Part shown: one piece after another, positions 32,415 through 39,715 of the stretch | How the letters are laid out: every line of letters starts with the position of its first letter | How positions within the stretch are numbered: the stretch's first letter is position 1 | Origin: Acidimicrobiales bacterium | GTDB taxonomy: Bacteria > Actinomycetota > Acidimicrobiia > Acidimicrobiales > JACCXE01 | Reading direction: 5' to 3' | Assembly (NCBI GenBank): GCA_035546775.1 | Contig: DASZWD010000016.1 | Span: 1-49,674 of the forward strand | Length of the DNA stretch: 49,674 nucleotides | Notes under the pieces: model-generated | The model's database searches: none | What the model was told of the DNA's origin: nothing | The model's input: the letters and a program-made list of their open reading frames with translations, nothing else | Translations under genes and position numbers: made by a program

Positions 32415-32815
32415 AGCGTGGGTACGCCGCCATCTTCTTGTCGGTAGCGGTCGCCGTCGCCGGTCTGCTGCTGTGGCAAGGACTCAGGAACGCCACCGTC
32501 TACTTCAAGACCGTGGACGAGGCCGTCGCTCAGCGCTCGTCGCTCGGGACGCGTCGCTTCCGCCTCGAAGGGATCGTGGCGCCCGGGTCGGTCCACGAGC
32601 GCGATGGCGGAGTCGACTTCGTGGTCGAGGAGAACAACGCCGAGATCCACGTTCACCACGTCGGTGACCCGCCTGAGCTGTTCAAGGCGAGTATTCCCGT
32701 GGTGCTCGAGGGGCACTTCGCCGGCGCGACCTACGAGAGCGACCGCATTCTCGTCAAGCACACCGCGGAGTACCGCAAGGCCAACCCCACGCGGGTCAAG
32801 GACTACAAGTCGTGA
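32411..32815 (+). CDS. ccmE: Cytochrome c maturation heme chaperone CcmE
   Basis: This is a 134-residue periplasm-side heme chaperone with an N-terminal anchor (about 5-24) and an OB-fold domain. The heme-attaching motif is H-x3-Y (His117, Tyr121 in LVKHTAEY), the classical histidine form rather than the CxxxY variant. The phrase VGDPPELFKASIPVVLEGHF is typical. The GTG start is coupled to ccmD and the stop to ccmF. Confidence 0.93.
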   Translation: MKRGYAAIFLSVAVAVAGLLLWQGLRNATVYFKTVDEAVAQRSSLGTRRFRLEGIVAPGSVHERDGGVDFVVEENNAEIHVHHVGDPPELFKASIPVVLEGHFAGATYESDRILVKHTAEYRKANPTRVKDYKS

Positions 32816-34797
32816 CGGCGATAGTCGGGCACAGCGCGGCGCTGCTTGGGTTCCTGGCCTCCGCGGTCGGGTGCAGCACGCTCGTCGTCGGTCTTGTGCG
32901 CAAGCGCAGCGCCATGCTGCGCGCCGCGTGGAGCTACGTGTGGTTCGTGCTCGCGGCGGCGATCATCGGCATGGGCGCGATGGAGTTCGCGCTCGTCCGG
33001 CACGACTTCTCGATGAAGTTCGTCGCCGACAACGGCAGCCGGCACACCCCTTTGCTCTACACCGTCGCCGGAGCGTGGTCGGCCCTCGAAGGCTCGATCC
33101 TGCTGTGGGTGCTGGTGCTGGCGATCTACCTCGCGGCGCTCGCCATCCGGCACCGATCACAGCGTGACGACCCGATCTTCGGCTGGGCGCTGGTCGTCAT
33201 GCTCGTCGTCTGCACGTTCTTCTTCCTGCTGCTGCTCGGTCCCGCCGATCCGTTCCACACGATCAAGGGCGCCATCCCTACCGACGGGCCGGGTCCGAAT
33301 CCGCTGCTGCAAAACCACCCGTTGATGGCGTTCCACCCGCCGATCCTCTACGCCGGCTACGTCGGCTTCACCGTGCCGTTCGCGTTTGCCGTGGCGTCGC
33401 TCATCACCGGGCGCGTCGACGAGGGCTGGGTGCTGGCCATGCGGCGCTGGACGCTGGTGGCCTTCGGTCTGCTGAGCGTCGGCATCATCCTCGGCGCCTG
33501 GTGGTCCTACGAGGTGCTCGGCTGGGGCGGCTTCTGGGCGTGGGATCCCGTCGAGAACGCGTCGTTCCTCCCGTGGCTGACGGCGACCGCGTACCTGCAT
33601 TCGGTGCTCGTGCAGGAACGCCGCGGCATGTTGCGCGTCTGGAACCTGTCGCTCGTCACCTCCACGTTCGCCCTCACCATCCTCGGTACGTTCCTCACGC
33701 GCTCGGGCGTCCTCGACTCCGTGCACAGCTTCACCGAGTCGGGCATCGGCCCGATGTTGCTCGGCTTCTTCGCCGTGATCGTGGTGGTGGTGTGCGGTCT
33801 GCTCGCCTGGCGCGGCGACGCGCTGCGTTCGCCCGGCATGATCGACTCGCCGGTGTCGCGCGAGGCCGCGTTCCTGATGAACAACCTTTTGTTCGCCGCG
33901 TTCGCTTTCGTGGTGCTGCTCGGCACCGTGTTCCCGCTCATCGCCGAGGCGATCAACAACGACCGGCTCACCATCGGCCGGCCCTACTTCGACCGCATGA
34001 CGGGACCGATCGGGTTGGCCTTGCTGTTCTTGATGGCGGTGGCACCGGCGCTGCCGTGGCGCAAGGCGAGCCGGGGTGTGCTGCGCGATCGGCTGATGGT
34101 CCCGGCGTGGGCCGGCGCGCTGACGCTCATGGTCCTCGTGTTGTTCGGCGTGCACAGCCTCGCCGCGCTGCTCGCCTTCGGTCTGGGCGCGTTCGCCGCC
34201 GCGGCCGCGCTGCGCCAGCTGGCCCTGGCCGCCCGCGCCGCCCGTCGTGCCGGGCAGCCCTGGTGGCGCGGCGTCATGGGCCGAGCCAACGGCGGCATGA
34301 TCGTGCACCTCGGCGTCGTCATCGTCGCCGTCGGGTTCGCGGCGTCGATGTCGTTCGTGCAGCGCGACGAGTTCCGCCTGAAGCCGGGCCAGTCGGCGCG
34401 GCTCGACGGTCACCGCATCACCTACGTCGGCGTGTCGCGCCAGAAGCACGAGAACCGCACGTCCGAGGTGGCCAACGTGCGCATCGACGGCGGCAAGATC
34501 TACCGACCGGCGCTGAGCAAGTATCCCTTCGCCACCCAGGCCATCGGCACACCGTCGGTGCACACCGGCTTGTTCGAAGACGTGTACCTCACCCTGGTGA
34601 CCACGCCGTCGTCGACGACGGGCTCGGCCGTGATCGGCGTGATCGTGACGCCGCTGGTGAGCTGGCTGTGGGCCGGTGGACTCGTGATCGGCCTCGGCAC
34701 CGTGCTGGCGCTCGTGCCGGGTAAGCGGCGGGTTCCGACGGCGCCGGCGTCGGCCGTGCTCGGTCCTGAGCCTGAACCGGAACCCGTGGCCGTATGA
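32812..34797 (+). CDS. ccmF: Heme lyase subunit CcmF
   Basis: This 661-residue polytopic membrane protein has the WWD heme-binding motif WGGFWAWDPVENASF (238-252). It also has conserved histidine regions (NHPLMAFHPPILYAGYVG and GMIVHLGVV) and TFLTRSGVLDSVHSF. It transfers heme from CcmE to apocytochrome c with CcmH and CcmI. The start (GTGA) and end (ATGA) overlap its neighbours. Confidence 0.95.
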   Translation: MTAIVGHSAALLGFLASAVGCSTLVVGLVRKRSAMLRAAWSYVWFVLAAAIIGMGAMEFALVRHDFSMKFVADNGSRHTPLLYTVAGAWSALEGSILLWVLVLAIYLAALAIRHRSQRDDPIFGWALVVMLVVCTFFFLLLLGPADPFHTIKGAIPTDGPGPNPLLQNHPLMAFHPPILYAGYVGFTVPFAFAVASLITGRVDEGWVLAMRRWTLVAFGLLSVGIILGAWWSYEVLGWGGFWAWDPVENASFLPWLTATAYLHSVLVQERRGMLRVWNLSLVTSTFALTILGTFLTRSGVLDSVHSFTESGIGPMLLGFFAVIVVVVCGLLAWRGDALRSPGMIDSPVSREAAFLMNNLLFAAFAFVVLLGTVFPLIAEAINNDRLTIGRPYFDRMTGPIGLALLFLMAVAPALPWRKASRGVLRDRLMVPAWAGALTLMVLVLFGVHSLAALLAFGLGAFAAAAALRQLALAARAARRAGQPWWRGVMGRANGGMIVHLGVVIVAVGFAASMSFVQRDEFRLKPGQSARLDGHRITYVGVSRQKHENRTSEVANVRIDGGKIYRPALSKYPFATQAIGTPSVHTGLFEDVYLTLVTTPSSTTGSAVIGVIVTPLVSWLWAGGLVIGLGTVLALVPGKRRVPTAPASAVLGPEPEPEPVAV

Positions 34798-35360
34798 CGC
34801 AGGCGGGTGGGTTGCGACGGCGCCGTACGGCGCCGTGGATCGCGTTGGGCGTCGCCGTCGTGTTGCTCGTCGTGATCGTCGTGGCGGCGAAGGCGAAGCC
34901 GGCGGAGCAGCGCACCGTCGACAGCCCGCTGCTCGGTCACATCTCGCCCTCGGTACAGGGCGACATCGTGTCGGGCCCGGCGCAGTCCTTGGACGAACTG
35001 CGCGGCAGGTACGTGCTGGTCAACTTCTTCGCCACGTGGTGCGTGCCGTGTCGCCAGGAGCATCCCGAGTTGGTGCGCTTCGCTGCCCACCACGCCCAGA
35101 TCGGCGACGCGGCGGTGATGCAGGTCGTCTACGGCGACCGCGCCTCGACCGTGCGTACGTTCCTGCACAACCACGGGGGCGACTGGACGGTTGTCGACGA
35201 CCCGAAGGGCGCGATCGCCCTCGACTGGGGTGTGCGCGGGCTGCCGGAGAGCTACCTCGTCGACCCGAACGGCTACGTGATCTACAAGATCACCGGCGGC
35301 GCCGACGCCGACGGGCTCGAAGCGTTGCTGCGGCAGGCCAAGGCGGGCGAAGCGAAGTGA
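34794..35360 (+). CDS. ccmG: Thiol:disulfide oxidoreductase CcmG/DsbE
   Basis: This 188-residue thioredoxin-fold protein has an N-terminal membrane anchor (about 15-33) and the active site WCVPC (82-86), preceded by VLVNFFAT. The cis-Pro region is RGLPESYLVDPNG. It reduces the haem-binding cysteines of apocytochrome c and receives electrons from CcdA. It is coupled to ccmF by ATGA. Confidence 0.93.
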   Translation: MTQAGGLRRRRTAPWIALGVAVVLLVVIVVAAKAKPAEQRTVDSPLLGHISPSVQGDIVSGPAQSLDELRGRYVLVNFFATWCVPCRQEHPELVRFAAHHAQIGDAAVMQVVYGDRASTVRTFLHNHGGDWTVVDDPKGAIALDWGVRGLPESYLVDPNGYVIYKITGGADADGLEALLRQAKAGEAK

Positions 35361-35384
35361 CCCAGTCGAAATGAAGCCGTCGAG

Positions 35385-35843
35385 ATGACACGGGCGCGCT
35401 TGGCGTGGCTCGCGCTCGCCATCGTGGTGATCGTCGCCATCGTGATCGCCACCACCGGCGGTGGCGCCAGCAAACCCAGCGCGGCCCAGCGCGCCGACGC
35501 CATCGCCCGTGACGTGCGCTGCCCGACGTGTCGCGGCCAATCAGTGGCCGAGTCGGCGGCGCCGGCGGCGCAGGCGATCCGCATCGAAATCCGCCGCCGC
35601 ATCGAGCTGGGCCAGTCGCGCGCCGAGATCGAGGCCTACCTCGAGGGCCGGTACGGCAGCGACATCATCCTCACGCCGCCGCGCAGTGGCATCGGCGGGG
35701 TGGTGTGGGTGTTGCCGGTGGTCGCCGTCGTGGCCGCCATCGCGGGGCTGGGAATTGCGCTCCAGCGCTGGTCGCGCCGCTCGCTCGAGCATCCGTCGGA
35801 TGAAGACCGCGCCCTCGTGGCGCGCGCGGAGCAGCCGACGTGA
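35385..35843 (+). CDS. ccmH: Cytochrome c maturation protein CcmH
   Basis: This 152-residue protein has the CcmH redox motif RCPTCRGQSV (Cys46, Cys49) between an N-terminal helix and a second helix (about 106-126). The IRRRIELGQSRAEIEAYLEG helix and YGSDIILTPP are typical. It works with CcmG on apocytochrome c. It overlaps the next gene by four bases (GTGA). Confidence 0.93.
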   Translation: MTRARLAWLALAIVVIVAIVIATTGGGASKPSAAQRADAIARDVRCPTCRGQSVAESAAPAAQAIRIEIRRRIELGQSRAEIEAYLEGRYGSDIILTPPRSGIGGVVWVLPVVAVVAAIAGLGIALQRWSRRSLEHPSDEDRALVARAEQPT

Positions 35844-36583
35844 CCGAGTTCGAGCACGCCGAACTCGTCGCCGAGCGTGACTTCCTGCTGCGCTCGATCG
35901 CGGACCTCGACGAGGAGCAAGCCGCCGGCGATCTCGCCGCCGACGACTTCGCCGCGTTGCGTGACGACTACGTCGCCCGGGCCGCCACCGTCATGCGCGC
36001 CCTCGACGGCGACGCTACGGCGACGCCGGCTGCGGTCGTCGCCGCGACGCCGCGCACCCGCAACCCGCGGCGCACGGCCCTGGTCGTCGTCGCCTGCTTG
36101 GCCGTCGCTGGGCTGGCCGGCGTCGCCCTCGCCGGGGCGGCCGGCTCGCGACCGGCCGGTGGACCGCTCACGGGTTCGCTGCCGCAGAACACCGCCGATC
36201 AGCTGGCGCAAGCGACCGAACTCATCGGCGCCGGCAAGCCGGTCGACGCGCTGAAGCTGTACGACACCATCCTGAAGAAGGATCCGCAGAACGCCACCGC
36301 GTTGGCCTACAAGGGCTGGCTGCTGCGCCTCGCCGGTGCTGACGACAAGTCGCTCCAGGAGAAGGGCCTCACCTACGAGGACCAGGCCGTCGCCGCCGAC
36401 CCGACGTATCCCGATGCTCACTTCTTCCGCGGGATGATGCTGTGGCAGGACAAGGGCGATCCGGCGGGGGCAGTTGGGGAGTTTCGTCTGTTTCTTGCGA
36501 ATCGTCCACCGCAGGCGATGGTCTCGCTCGTCGAGGACGCGTTGAAACGCGCCGCGGCCGAGGCCGGCATCCCCGTCGACTAG
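35840..36583 (+). CDS. ccmI: CcmI-like TPR protein
   Basis: This 247-residue protein begins with a CcmI-like coiled segment (AERDFLLRSIADLDEEQAAG) and one membrane helix (about 78-98). A TPR-type region follows (about 115-240), with DALKLYDTILKKDPQNATAL and QAVAADPTYPDAHFFRG. CcmI chaperones apocytochrome c to CcmF/H. Last gene of the operon by overlap; the symbol is given for architecture and position. Confidence 0.8.
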   Translation: MTEFEHAELVAERDFLLRSIADLDEEQAAGDLAADDFAALRDDYVARAATVMRALDGDATATPAAVVAATPRTRNPRRTALVVVACLAVAGLAGVALAGAAGSRPAGGPLTGSLPQNTADQLAQATELIGAGKPVDALKLYDTILKKDPQNATALAYKGWLLRLAGADDKSLQEKGLTYEDQAVAADPTYPDAHFFRGMMLWQDKGDPAGAVGEFRLFLANRPPQAMVSLVEDALKRAAAEAGIPVD

Positions 36584-36714: not shown

Positions 36715-37833
36715 TTACGACGTGCGCAGCGCGCGCAGCTTGTCGACCACCGAGCCAAAACTGTTGGCGAACGCGGCGACGTCGTCGTCGGTGGTCGACC
36801 ACCCCACGCTGAGGCGCAGGCTGCGCTGGGCGTCCACTCCCATGGCCTCGAGCACGGGAGACGGTTCGAGCGCCTCGGACGAGCACGCGCTGCCGGAGTG
36901 CGCGGCGATGCCCGCTTGGTCGAGACCGAGCAGCACCGCTTCGGACTCGACGCCGCCGATGCCGAAGCACACGATGTGCGGAACGCGCCCAACCGGATCG
37001 CCGTACTGCACTACCCCGTGGACGGCCAGCGCGGCGTCGGCGAGCGCGCACGTCTGCGCGAAGTTGTCGTTCGCCTCGCGGGTCTGCGCCACCGTGAGGC
37101 CGTCGGTTACCGCCGCCATCGCCTCCACGAGAGCGACGGCTTCGAGCCCGGCGCGTCGGGCTCGCTCCTGGTCGCCGCCGAGAAGCAGCGGATCGATGCG
37201 CAGCCCGCGCCGCACGAGCAGGGCGCCGACTCCGACGGGCCCGCCGAACCTCGAGGCGCTGATCGACAACAGATCGACGCCGAGGTCGTCGAAGGCGATC
37301 GGGACGTGGCCGGCGGCGGCGGCCGCGTCGACGTGCAGTAGCACGCCGCGTTCCTGGCACAGCGCCGCGATCTCGGCGACGGGTTGCAGGGTCGCCACTT
37401 CGTGATTGGCGAACTGGCAGTGCACCAGAGCGACGTTGCGCTCGAGCAGGGCGCGCACGCTGTCGACGGAGATGCGGCCGCAGCTGTCGACCTCGGGCAC
37501 CAGTAGATCGCCGTGGCGCGCCGAGGCCTCGCGCACCGCCGAGTGCTCGACGGCGGCAGCGACGAACGCGCCGTCGGGCCGGCGCGATGCAGCACCGAAG
37601 CACGCGGCGTTGATCGCCTCGGTGGCGCCGCTGGTGAACACGACCGATCGCGGTCGCGCCCCGAAGAACGCGGCGACGCGGGTGCGGGCGTCCTCTAACG
37701 CGACGCGCGTCATGCGCCCTTCGGTGTGCACGCGCCCGGGATCGCCGGTCACGTCGAGCCACTCGACCAGCGCTGCCTTCGCCTCCGGGCGCAGGGGAGA
37801 GACCGACGCGTGGTCTAGGTAGGCACGAGCCAC
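36715..37833 (-). CDS. Cysteine desulfurase homologue lacking the PLP lysine
   Basis: This is a 372-residue class V aminotransferase-fold protein of the NifS/IscS type. TSGATEA, VEHSAV (His97), LHVDAAAAAGH (Asp169) and the active-site loop SGSACSSE (Cys317) are in place. The PLP-binding SxHK is SASR, with Ser194 and Arg195 (codon AGG at 37249-37251) where His-Lys belongs. The Gln usually seen after Asp169 is Ala172. Without lysine no internal aldimine can form, so normal desulfurase activity is doubtful. It may be a degenerate paralogue, a binding protein, or use another lysine. It lies four bases after the SufR-like gene in one operon. Confidence 0.85.
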   Translation of the reverse strand: MARAYLDHASVSPLRPEAKAALVEWLDVTGDPGRVHTEGRMTRVALEDARTRVAAFFGARPRSVVFTSGATEAINAACFGAASRRPDGAFVAAAVEHSAVREASARHGDLLVPEVDSCGRISVDSVRALLERNVALVHCQFANHEVATLQPVAEIAALCQERGVLLHVDAAAAAGHVPIAFDDLGVDLLSISASRFGGPVGVGALLVRRGLRIDPLLLGGDQERARRAGLEAVALVEAMAAVTDGLTVAQTREANDNFAQTCALADAALAVHGVVQYGDPVGRVPHIVCFGIGGVESEAVLLGLDQAGIAAHSGSACSSEALEPSPVLEAMGVDAQRSLRLSVGWSTTDDDVAAFANSFGSVVDKLRALRTS

Positions 37834-37837
37834 GTTG

Positions 37838-38542
37838 CTACGACAGGGAGGTGACGCAGGCGTCGCCGCCCATGGCGCGCGAGCTTTCGGTGACGGGCAC
37901 CGTGTCGCCGTAGAGCCCGCCGAGCATGCCTCGGACCATGCCGCGGTCGACGGCGCACATCACCGGGTGTTCGTGGGCGGCGCTGCCGAACGGGCACTGG
38001 TCGTTGATGATCCGCAGCGACGTGCCGCGGGCCTCGGCGTGGGCGGCGAAGCCGTGGGCCGTCAGCGCGTCGGCCACCGCCGCGAGCGCTGAGCGGAACG
38101 AGCGATGCACGTCGCCGGGCGACATGCGCTCGGCCAGGGAGCGGCCGTACTCCTCGCCGACGCTTTCGGCGAGTTCCTCGGCCTGATCAGCCGGGAGGAG
38201 CGACAACGCCCGCCCGAGCAGCGTGGCGAGGAGGTCGTCGCGACGGCTGTGGACCTCGAGGGGCTCGACGACTGCCGAGGCCTTGTAGTGCTTCGAGGGC
38301 CGGCCGGCACCAACCTGCGCACTGCGCTTCACGGTGACCTCGAGGTACCCGCCGGCGGCGAGCTTGTCGAGGTGGTGGCGGGCGACGTTCGGGTGGAGGG
38401 CGAACTTCTCGGCGACCGCGGTTGCCGTCACCCCGTCGTCGGCCGACTCGCGGGCGAACAGGTAGATGGCCCGCCGGGTGGGGTCGCCGAACGCTGAGGT
38501 GACGGCCGAGACCGCCGCGGCAAATTCGGCATCCGTGGACAC
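37838..38542 (-). CDS. SufR-like Fe-S-sensing transcriptional regulator
   Basis: This is a 234-residue ArsR/DeoR-type winged-helix protein: SAFGDPTRRAIYLF, then ATAVAEKFALHPNVARHHLD as the recognition helix. The C-terminus has Cys183-x12-Cys196-x32-Cys229, close to the cysteine spacing of SufR-type Fe-S repressors. In actinobacteria SufR controls suf genes. Here it is the first gene of an operon with a desulfurase homologue and is divergent from mrp across 36 bases. A palindrome at 38555-38568 is its likely operator. Confidence 0.85.
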   Translation of the reverse strand: MSTDAEFAAAVSAVTSAFGDPTRRAIYLFARESADDGVTATAVAEKFALHPNVARHHLDKLAAGGYLEVTVKRSAQVGAGRPSKHYKASAVVEPLEVHSRRDDLLATLLGRALSLLPADQAEELAESVGEEYGRSLAERMSPGDVHRSFRSALAAVADALTAHGFAAHAEARGTSLRIINDQCPFGSAAHEHPVMCAVDRGMVRGMLGGLYGDTVPVTESSRAMGGDACVTSLS

Positions 38543-38554
38543 ACCGATATTCTA

Positions 38555-38568
38555 CCTATGCAGATAGG
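38555..38568. promoter_or_regulatory. Probable SufR-like operator between regulator and mrp
   Basis: CCTAT-GCAG-ATAGG is a perfect 5+5 inverted repeat. It extends imperfectly to TCTACCTAT and ATAGGAGA. It lies in the 36-base gap between the divergent regulator and mrp starts and overlaps the mrp ribosome-binding site, so binding could block mrp translation or transcription. Confidence 0.5.
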
Positions 38569-38578
38569 AGAAATCCCC

Positions 38579-39715
38579 GTGAGCCTTTCCGAACAGCAGA
38601 TCATCGAAGCGCTGCGCCCCGTCCAGGACCCGGAGCTGCGCCGCAGCATCGTCGACCTCGGCATGGTCAAGAACGTCGTGATCGACGGCGACGCCGTCGC
38701 CGTGACGGTCGCGCTGACCATCGCGGGTTGCCCGCTGCGCGCCGAGCTGACCACCCGCGTCACCGACGCCGTCACCGCCCTCGGTGCGACCAACGTGACG
38801 GTCGACTTCACCGTCATGACCGACGAGGAGCGCGCCAAGGTCTCCGAGATCATGGGCGGCGCCGGTCATGGAGCGCACGCGCAGGGCCACGAGGGTCACT
38901 CGCACGCGCCGGCCAAGCCACTGCCGTTCCGCGAGGGCAGCCGCACCCGCGTCATCGGGGTCAACTCGGGCAAGGGTGGCGTAGGCAAGAGCTCGGTCAC
39001 GGTCAACCTGGCGATCGCGCTCAAGCAGCTCGGCTACGACGTGGCCGTGCTCGACGCCGACGTGTACGGGTTCTCGGTGCCGGCGATGCTCGGCGTCGAC
39101 AGCCCGCCGACTGTCATCGACCAGATGATGGTGCCGCCCGAAGCCAATGGCATCCGCTGCATCTCGATGGGCTTTTTCATCGACGAGGACCAGGCCGTCA
39201 TCTGGCGCGGCCCGATGCTGCACAAGGCGCTCGAGCAGTTCCTCACCGACGTGTACTGGGACGAGCCCGACTTCCTCGTCGTCGACATGCCGCCGGGCAC
39301 CGGCGACGTCTCGCTGTCGATGGCGCAGTACCTGCCGCGCACCGAGATCTACGTGGTGACGACGCCGCAGGCCGCGGCGCAGCGCGTCGCCCAGCGCACC
39401 GCCGCGATGGCGAAGAAGCTCAACCTGCCGGTGCGCGGCGTCATCGAGAACATGTCGTGGTTCACCGGCGACGACGGCAAGCGCTACGAACTGTTCGGGG
39501 CGGGCGGTGGTCAGATCCTCGCCGAGGACATCGACGCACCGCTGCTCGGCCAGATCCCGCTCGTGCCCGAGTTGCGTGAGGGCGGCGACCACGGCGAGCC
39601 GATCACGGTGAGCAACCCCGACAGCGAAGCGGCACAGGCGTTCCGTGCCCTGGCGCAGCGCGTCGTGGACCTCGGCGCCACGCGGGTCTACCGCAGCGAA
39701 CTGAAGCTGGGCTGA
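38579..39715 (+). CDS. mrp: Mrp/ApbC-family Fe-S carrier ATPase
   Basis: This is a 378-residue protein. An N-terminal DUF59 (MIP18) domain (ALRPVQDPELRRSIVDLGMV, GCPLRAEL) precedes a P-loop domain with GVNSGKGGVGKSS and DFLVVDMPPGTGDVSLS. Mrp/ApbC proteins bind and hand over Fe-S clusters. A histidine-rich linker (HGAHAQGHEGHSH) joins the domains. The C-terminal CxxC of enteric ApbC is absent; the region reads ENMSWFTGDDG, which resembles actinobacterial Mrp. GTG 38579 with AGGAG upstream is preferred to ATG 38558. Confidence 0.9.
   Translation: MSLSEQQIIEALRPVQDPELRRSIVDLGMVKNVVIDGDAVAVTVALTIAGCPLRAELTTRVTDAVTALGATNVTVDFTVMTDEERAKVSEIMGGAGHGAHAQGHEGHSHAPAKPLPFREGSRTRVIGVNSGKGGVGKSSVTVNLAIALKQLGYDVAVLDADVYGFSVPAMLGVDSPPTVIDQMMVPPEANGIRCISMGFFIDEDQAVIWRGPMLHKALEQFLTDVYWDEPDFLVVDMPPGTGDVSLSMAQYLPRTEIYVVTTPQAAAQRVAQRTAAMAKKLNLPVRGVIENMSWFTGDDGKRYELFGAGGGQILAEDIDAPLLGQIPLVPELREGGDHGEPITVSNPDSEAAQAFRALAQRVVDLGATRVYRSELKLG

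Follow-up and report, generated by a model that had tools for sequence, protein, structure and literature searches.

The closest described counterpart of the gene studied here is the IscS of Archaeoglobus fulgidus. In one paper (PMC7585200, which cites Marinoni 2012 and Pagnier 2014), this protein is described as having Asp in place of the PLP lysine, as lacking desulfurase activity, and as coordinating the [2Fe-2S] cluster of IscU with a cysteine of its own. The IscS1 of Methanosarcina acetivorans also lacks the essential lysine (PMC7585200), and the K206A variant of Escherichia coli IscS binds some PLP without having desulfurase activity (PMC9978102). Among regulators, Mycobacterium tuberculosis SufR (Rv1460) requires exactly three cysteines, C203, C216 and C244 (PMC6034842), and ArnR holds a [4Fe-4S] cluster with three conserved cysteines and a fourth ligand that is unknown (PMC12343034). 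We found no description, in the literature searched, of lysine-less desulfurases that are encoded with SufR or that occur in Acidimicrobiia.

We analyzed a stretch of 49,674 nucleotides from an Acidimicrobiales bacterium (contig DASZWD010000016.1), called the window below, in which an uninterrupted frame with a GTG start encodes an IscS-like protein (Table 1). The original prediction gave the coordinates of this gene correctly, but the gene lies on the minus strand, unlike the forward strand on which the DNA was presented. The protein has the class V aminotransferase fold by profile search (PF00266, 176.4 bits against a cut-off of 21.5), and its top profile matches are NifS and IscS. It falls short of the NCBIfam equivalog cut-offs for NifS, IscS and DndA (best TIGR03402, 276 against 531 bits), which do not discriminate here because the canonical IscS-like copy of the same genome also scores below them (351 bits). 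The predicted structure (pLDDT 88.6) superposes on M. tuberculosis IscS (4isy; Z 47.3, rmsd 1.8, 355 aligned residues) and on A. fulgidus IscS (4hvk; Z 45.7, rmsd 1.8, 350 aligned).

Table 1. Features of the desulfurase-homologue locus, in window positions
Feature	Positions	Strand	Basis or remark
IscS/NifS-type desulfurase homologue, 372 aa	36715–37833	minus	PF00266, 176 bits; Lys replaced by Arg195, Cys317 kept
Codon of Cys317, loop HSGSxC[SA]SE	36883–36885	minus	invariant in 241/241 family members
Codon of Cys289, a further Cys particular to the family; canonical IscS-like copies have His	36967–36969	minus	in 29/32 Lys-less members
Codons TCG AGG, Ser194 (37254–37252) and Arg195 (37251–37249); CAC AAG, His-Lys, in orthologues	37249–37254	minus	codon comparison
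SufR-like winged-helix regulator, first gene of two-gene operon	37838–38542	minus	profile matches; three invariant Cys
Palindrome CCTAT-N4-ATAGG	38555–38568	none	overlaps first codons of annotated Mrp frame
Mrp/ApbC-type Fe-S carrier ATPase, N-terminal FeS_assembly_P domain	38558–39715	plus	profile matches; divergent

PLP pocket and cysteine loop of the window protein

Where a desulfurase has its Schiff-base lysine following a histidine, the window protein has Ser194-Arg195. Residues 191–199 read I-S-A-S-R-F-G-G-P, against SAHK-FGGP in the closest orthologues, and the codons AGC GCC TCG AGG TTC GGC align with AGC GCC/GCT CAC AAG TTC GGC. The original prediction of an arginine (AGG) in an SASR site is thus borne out. 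Four bases differ within the six bases of the two codons, and the difference is therefore not one miscalled base. The cysteine that forms the persulfide in a mobile loop is present as Cys317 in the context HSGSACSSE, again as predicted, and residues 318–321 of this loop have low pLDDT in the model. Alanine at position 172, which the original prediction had set against a common Gln, occurs in 112 of the 209 lysine-bearing family members and in the genome's own canonical IscS-like copy, and it is no sign of lost function. As the lysine that defines the class was looked for and an arginine found, we do not classify the window protein as a cysteine desulfurase; judged from its sequence, it has likely lost the activity.

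To see how far the remainder of the protein departs from its family, we left out each of 58 family members in turn and counted the alignment columns invariant among all others (37–46, depending on the member removed). About 44 of the 58 break no such column. For the window protein the count is two of 39, and these are exactly the adjacent changes H194S and K195R.

The best sequence matches in the PDB are to A. fulgidus IscS (2e-56 to 4r5f, 7e-56 to 4eb5). A. fulgidus IscS2 (PDB 4eb5, 4eb7 and 4hvk; D199K mutant 4r5f) shares the IscS fold with the window protein, and in both the PLP lysine is replaced and the catalytic cysteine kept. The A. fulgidus protein differs in being archaeal, in having Asp rather than Arg at the site and in its partner IscU, whereas the window family belongs to bacteria, shares an operon with a SufR-like regulator, and has its own H312, E320 and C289. 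No IscU-like gene adjoins the desulfurase homologue, whose neighbors are the SufR-like, Mrp and TPR/CcmH genes, and because an encoded IscU partner is not there we do not assign the window protein to the A. fulgidus type. M. acetivorans IscS1, compared by its description only, is an IscS orthologue that likewise lacks the lysine and differs in being encoded with IscU. By analogy, the window protein may work most like A. fulgidus IscS, perhaps also as the donor of a Cys ligand.

Repeated loss of the lysine in one family

Orthologues of the window gene are spread through its order and other orders of the class. We sampled 241 non-redundant full-length members across the class, with membership decided by similarity, His312 and length, and not by Cys317. 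Lys195 is absent from 32 of them, replaced by Thr (8), Arg (6), Gly (6), Leu (6), Ser (4) or Met (2); this fraction is not a prevalence, since sampling went by best match and the one family searched in depth was oversampled. Cys317 is present in all 241, and Asn143 and Asp169 are likewise universal among the sampled members. Since 209 of 241 keep the lysine, the original function of the family may still depend on PLP.

On a family tree built without the pocket columns, at least ten changes between lysine and another residue are needed, nine when the deep lysine-less clade is left out. A single origin of the loss was rejected, as grouping all lysine-less sequences cost 578 units of lnL (p-AU 5.3e-6). 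The original prediction had looked to conservation of Arg195 for a new subfamily, and to His-Lys throughout the close homologues for its own undoing. Aligned, the nearest homologues of the window protein all carry His-Lys, which rules out a conserved-arginine subfamily; the wider reading stands all the same, as elsewhere in the family the lysine disappeared independently on at least ten occasions and the cysteine on none.

The lysine-less members differ in depth. In the shallow cases, the window protein among them, the change is confined to the His-Lys site. There are also pairs of species that share a replacement of the lysine (Arg in L218 and L224, Thr in L131 and L147). The deep clade (n=15) has Arg in place of His97 throughout (15/15) and Glu in place of His194 in 14/15, and Thr71 and Ser98 are mostly gone. 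This clade keeps D31, P32, R34, R43, E47, R50, E72, N143, E145 and D169 throughout, together with QERxRR (Q222-E223-R224/R226-R227), H312, G314, C317 and E320 (15/15), as well as S325; the QERxRR segment (222–227) is retained in all 32 lysine-less members. The uniformity of Arg97 and Glu194 suggests that the pocket was filled and did not simply decay. Several other members keep the lysine and have lost the preceding histidine, with Ala-Lys in L209, L232 and L349, Pro-Lys in L210 and L347, and Tyr-Lys in L307 and L314, and these are perhaps intermediate stages. The most diverged lysine-less members, L162 and L163 (genomes G215 and G236, small at 1.6–1.9 Mb), have a HAGSACSGE loop, ERL, and Asp-Glu-Thr at 169–171, and still adjoin a SufR-like gene.

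The family is distinct from canonical desulfurases of the same genomes. Relative to their IscS-like copies, H312, S313 and E320 around the catalytic cysteine are fixed or nearly so in the family, as are Cys289, D31, R34, H144 and P326. The Thr of the GGxQE..RxGT motif, present in 27/27 canonical copies, is mostly Leu, Met or Ile in the family. In E. coli IscS this Thr extends to the phosphate of the PLP bound by the partner subunit, and with its loss the family may have bound PLP less tightly all along. The canonical desulfurases of IscS and SufS type, among them copies from lysine-less genomes, have His-Lys in 32/32. The original prediction had asked whether a normal sufS or iscS lies elsewhere in the genome, and both kinds do: a SufS over its cut-off (499.5 bits) and a canonical IscS-like copy 47% identical to the window protein, along with SufB. 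This IscS-like copy (C58) and Mycobacterium IscS (4isy) have the same fold as the window protein at 34–47% identity; C58 differs in having His-Lys, the motif Thr, and Ser/Gly where the window family has His312/Glu320.

We estimated selection from species pairs (NG86). Lysine-less pairs give dN/dS values of 0.09–0.23, against 0.14–0.32 for lysine-bearing pairs, and are under purifying selection. For the window gene and its nearest orthologue the value is 0.36, compared with 0.20–0.24 in neighboring lysine-bearing pairs, and its end branch on the family tree is long, so that mild relaxation of this gene is possible. The entire locus, the Mrp orthologue included, is missing from the sole other genome of the same genus, which is 77% complete; this makes the same-genus comparison uninformative and leaves the window protein as one sequence only.

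The SufR-like gene, Mrp and a palindrome

The predicted coupling to a SufR-like regulator holds: that gene lies directly upstream of the desulfurase homologue, in the same direction and with a 4-bp gap. The arrangement recurs across the family, with the SufR-like gene immediately upstream in 101 of 109 lysine-bearing and 20 of 21 lysine-less loci, and Mrp divergent in 114 lysine-bearing and 21 lysine-less loci.

The regulator scores 35.8 bits to the winged-helix model HTH_20 and has ArsR-type matches to its N-terminal part, and Cys183, Cys196 and Cys229 are invariant in all 121 aligned copies (102 from lysine-bearing and 19 from lysine-less loci). Its sequence thus has the winged helix and three Cys ligands of a SufR-like protein, with cluster binding predicted, and it misses the cut-off of TIGR02702, a model named for cyanobacterial SufR (26.8 against 178.8 bits). 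It resembles Rv1460 in the winged helix, the three invariant cysteines and the C-X12-C spacing found between C203 and C216 (PMC6034842), and differs in the spacing to the third cysteine, X32 against X27. The predicted C-terminal half of the regulator superposes on the sensor domains of Bet3/TRAPP and PoxR/MopR (V4R-type; Z about 11–15). If this superposition is true (the model has a pLDDT of only 69), SufR-like cluster sensors would belong in the V4R fold. The same genome has a second, paralogous divergent pair (C14:88771-90474) of Mrp (48%) and SufR-like (33%) genes.

The annotated starts of Mrp and the regulator are 15 bp apart, and the true Mrp start is perhaps the GTG at 38579. The palindrome sits just upstream of a -10-like TAGAAT for the regulator (38554–38549, minus strand), and the regulator's GTG start, downstream of this hexamer, is nearly leaderless. 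CCTAT-N4-ATAGG has its sole match in the window here and none in 100 shuffles, and the sequence CCTAYNNNNRTAGGTA has a single occurrence in the whole genome (3.75 Mb). Its placement here and not at the suf operon is a further difference from SufR. Because the palindrome is unique in the genome, the regulator looks local, acting on its own gene, the desulfurase homologue and Mrp. Across the family, the strict palindrome is found in 30 of the 135 intergenic regions, and in one of the 21 lysine-less ones, as against 0.04% of shuffles; it is clear in the window and variable in the family. A sigma-70 scan of the Mrp/SufR-like intergenic region gave no match at the default threshold. The palindrome and the adjoining TAGAAT are probably an operator and a leaderless promoter.

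On the other side, cytochrome-c-biogenesis-like, thioredoxin-like, CcmH and TPR genes (32812–36583) run toward the desulfurase homologue, and thioredoxin-like, CcmH-like and TPR-like neighbors are apparently present in locus L053 too.

Possible roles of the lysine-less protein

Without the lysine there would be no internal aldimine and no proton transfers, so that, by homology and from the published mutants, no release of sulfur from cysteine would be expected. Selection would then keep the fold and the mobile loop H312-S-G-S-x-C317-x-S-E320, with Cys317 acting directly in Fe-S chemistry for the operon partner. Cys317 might coordinate a partner's cluster from outside, the arrangement described for A. 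fulgidus IscS, or it might accept persulfide sulfur made by SufS or IscS and pass it on. Among candidate clients, the nearest would be the SufR-like regulator, with no more than three conserved Cys ligands, and the divergent Mrp Fe-S carrier, the two apparently under one shared operator. We hold with about even confidence that the window protein is a desulfurase homologue that works without PLP and, in the manner of Archaeoglobus IscS, uses its Cys loop to provide a ligand or convey sulfur when Fe-S clusters are sensed or assembled; its exact role we infer. Counting against this reading, SufR proteins elsewhere bind their cluster without a desulfurase-homologue partner. A more specific proposal, which we consider tentative and rather unlikely, is that of a PLP-free co-sensor, arisen repeatedly, in which Cys317 would complete the partner's three-Cys cluster or feed sulfur to it and the pair would report cluster supply and control Mrp through a dedicated operator.

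The lysine-less chain might instead be a regulatory subunit, tuning or targeting an active IscS-like or SufS chain with which it forms a heterodimer, much as in serine palmitoyltransferase, where LCB1 is the partner of LCB2. In fold type I enzymes the active sites lie at the dimer interface, QERxRR is kept in every lysine-less member, and the genome supplies both a 47% identical active IscS-like copy and SufS. But the genes for such partner chains are not adjacent, the family's change of Thr to Leu, Met or Ile removes the residue expected at the partner's PLP phosphate, and the deep clade rebuilt the pocket within its own chain; we regard a heterodimer as unlikely. The next in order of probability, and also unlikely, is a rhodanese-like relay and nothing else, in which SufS or IscS would persulfidate Cys317 and the sulfur would pass to Mrp or the regulator without cluster ligation. 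The invariant Cys loop with its family-specific H312 and E320, and the availability of active SufS (over its cut-off) and IscS-like copies, agree with this, although a fold of 372 residues is large for a carrier.

The same recurrence of lysine loss could reflect relaxed constraint, with SufS and IscS sufficing, the lysine drifting and the window copy an early pseudogene, as its slightly long branch and higher dN/dS would allow. We think this quite improbable, as frames are intact over many genera, Cys317 is universal, lysine-less pairs stay at 0.09–0.23 and the deep clade was rebuilt uniformly; general decay of the window copy is disfavored by its two broken columns of 39 and by the constraint on lysine-less pairs. 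An error of sequencing or assembly, chimeric assembly included, is very hard to credit: the source genome, 97.5% complete in 75 contigs, was probably assembled from a metagenome, but the four base differences are clustered in an open frame, and the same residue is changed in many other genomes, including species pairs that share the change. The PLP-independent reading remains the best explanation. The observation behind the original prediction is confirmed and its interpretation partly supported: of the three roles it suggested, a PLP-free one endures and a generic decoy is the least supported.

Lysine-less IscS was previously known from a few archaea; here it appears in one orthologous bacterial family with at least ten losses. 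The papers searched hold no description of such repeated loss in a single regulator-coupled family. Because the lysine was lost at least ten times and the cysteine always kept, some of the family probably have a function that is not enzymatic, and the label ‘cysteine desulfurase’ is probably wrong for its lysine-less members. The family would separate two tasks of a desulfurase, the production of sulfur and the presentation or transfer of a thiol at a cluster. For the thiol task it offers natural replicates, some with two codons altered and others with the whole pocket rebuilt. It also suggests that this class of bacteria has a dedicated three-gene Fe-S circuit.
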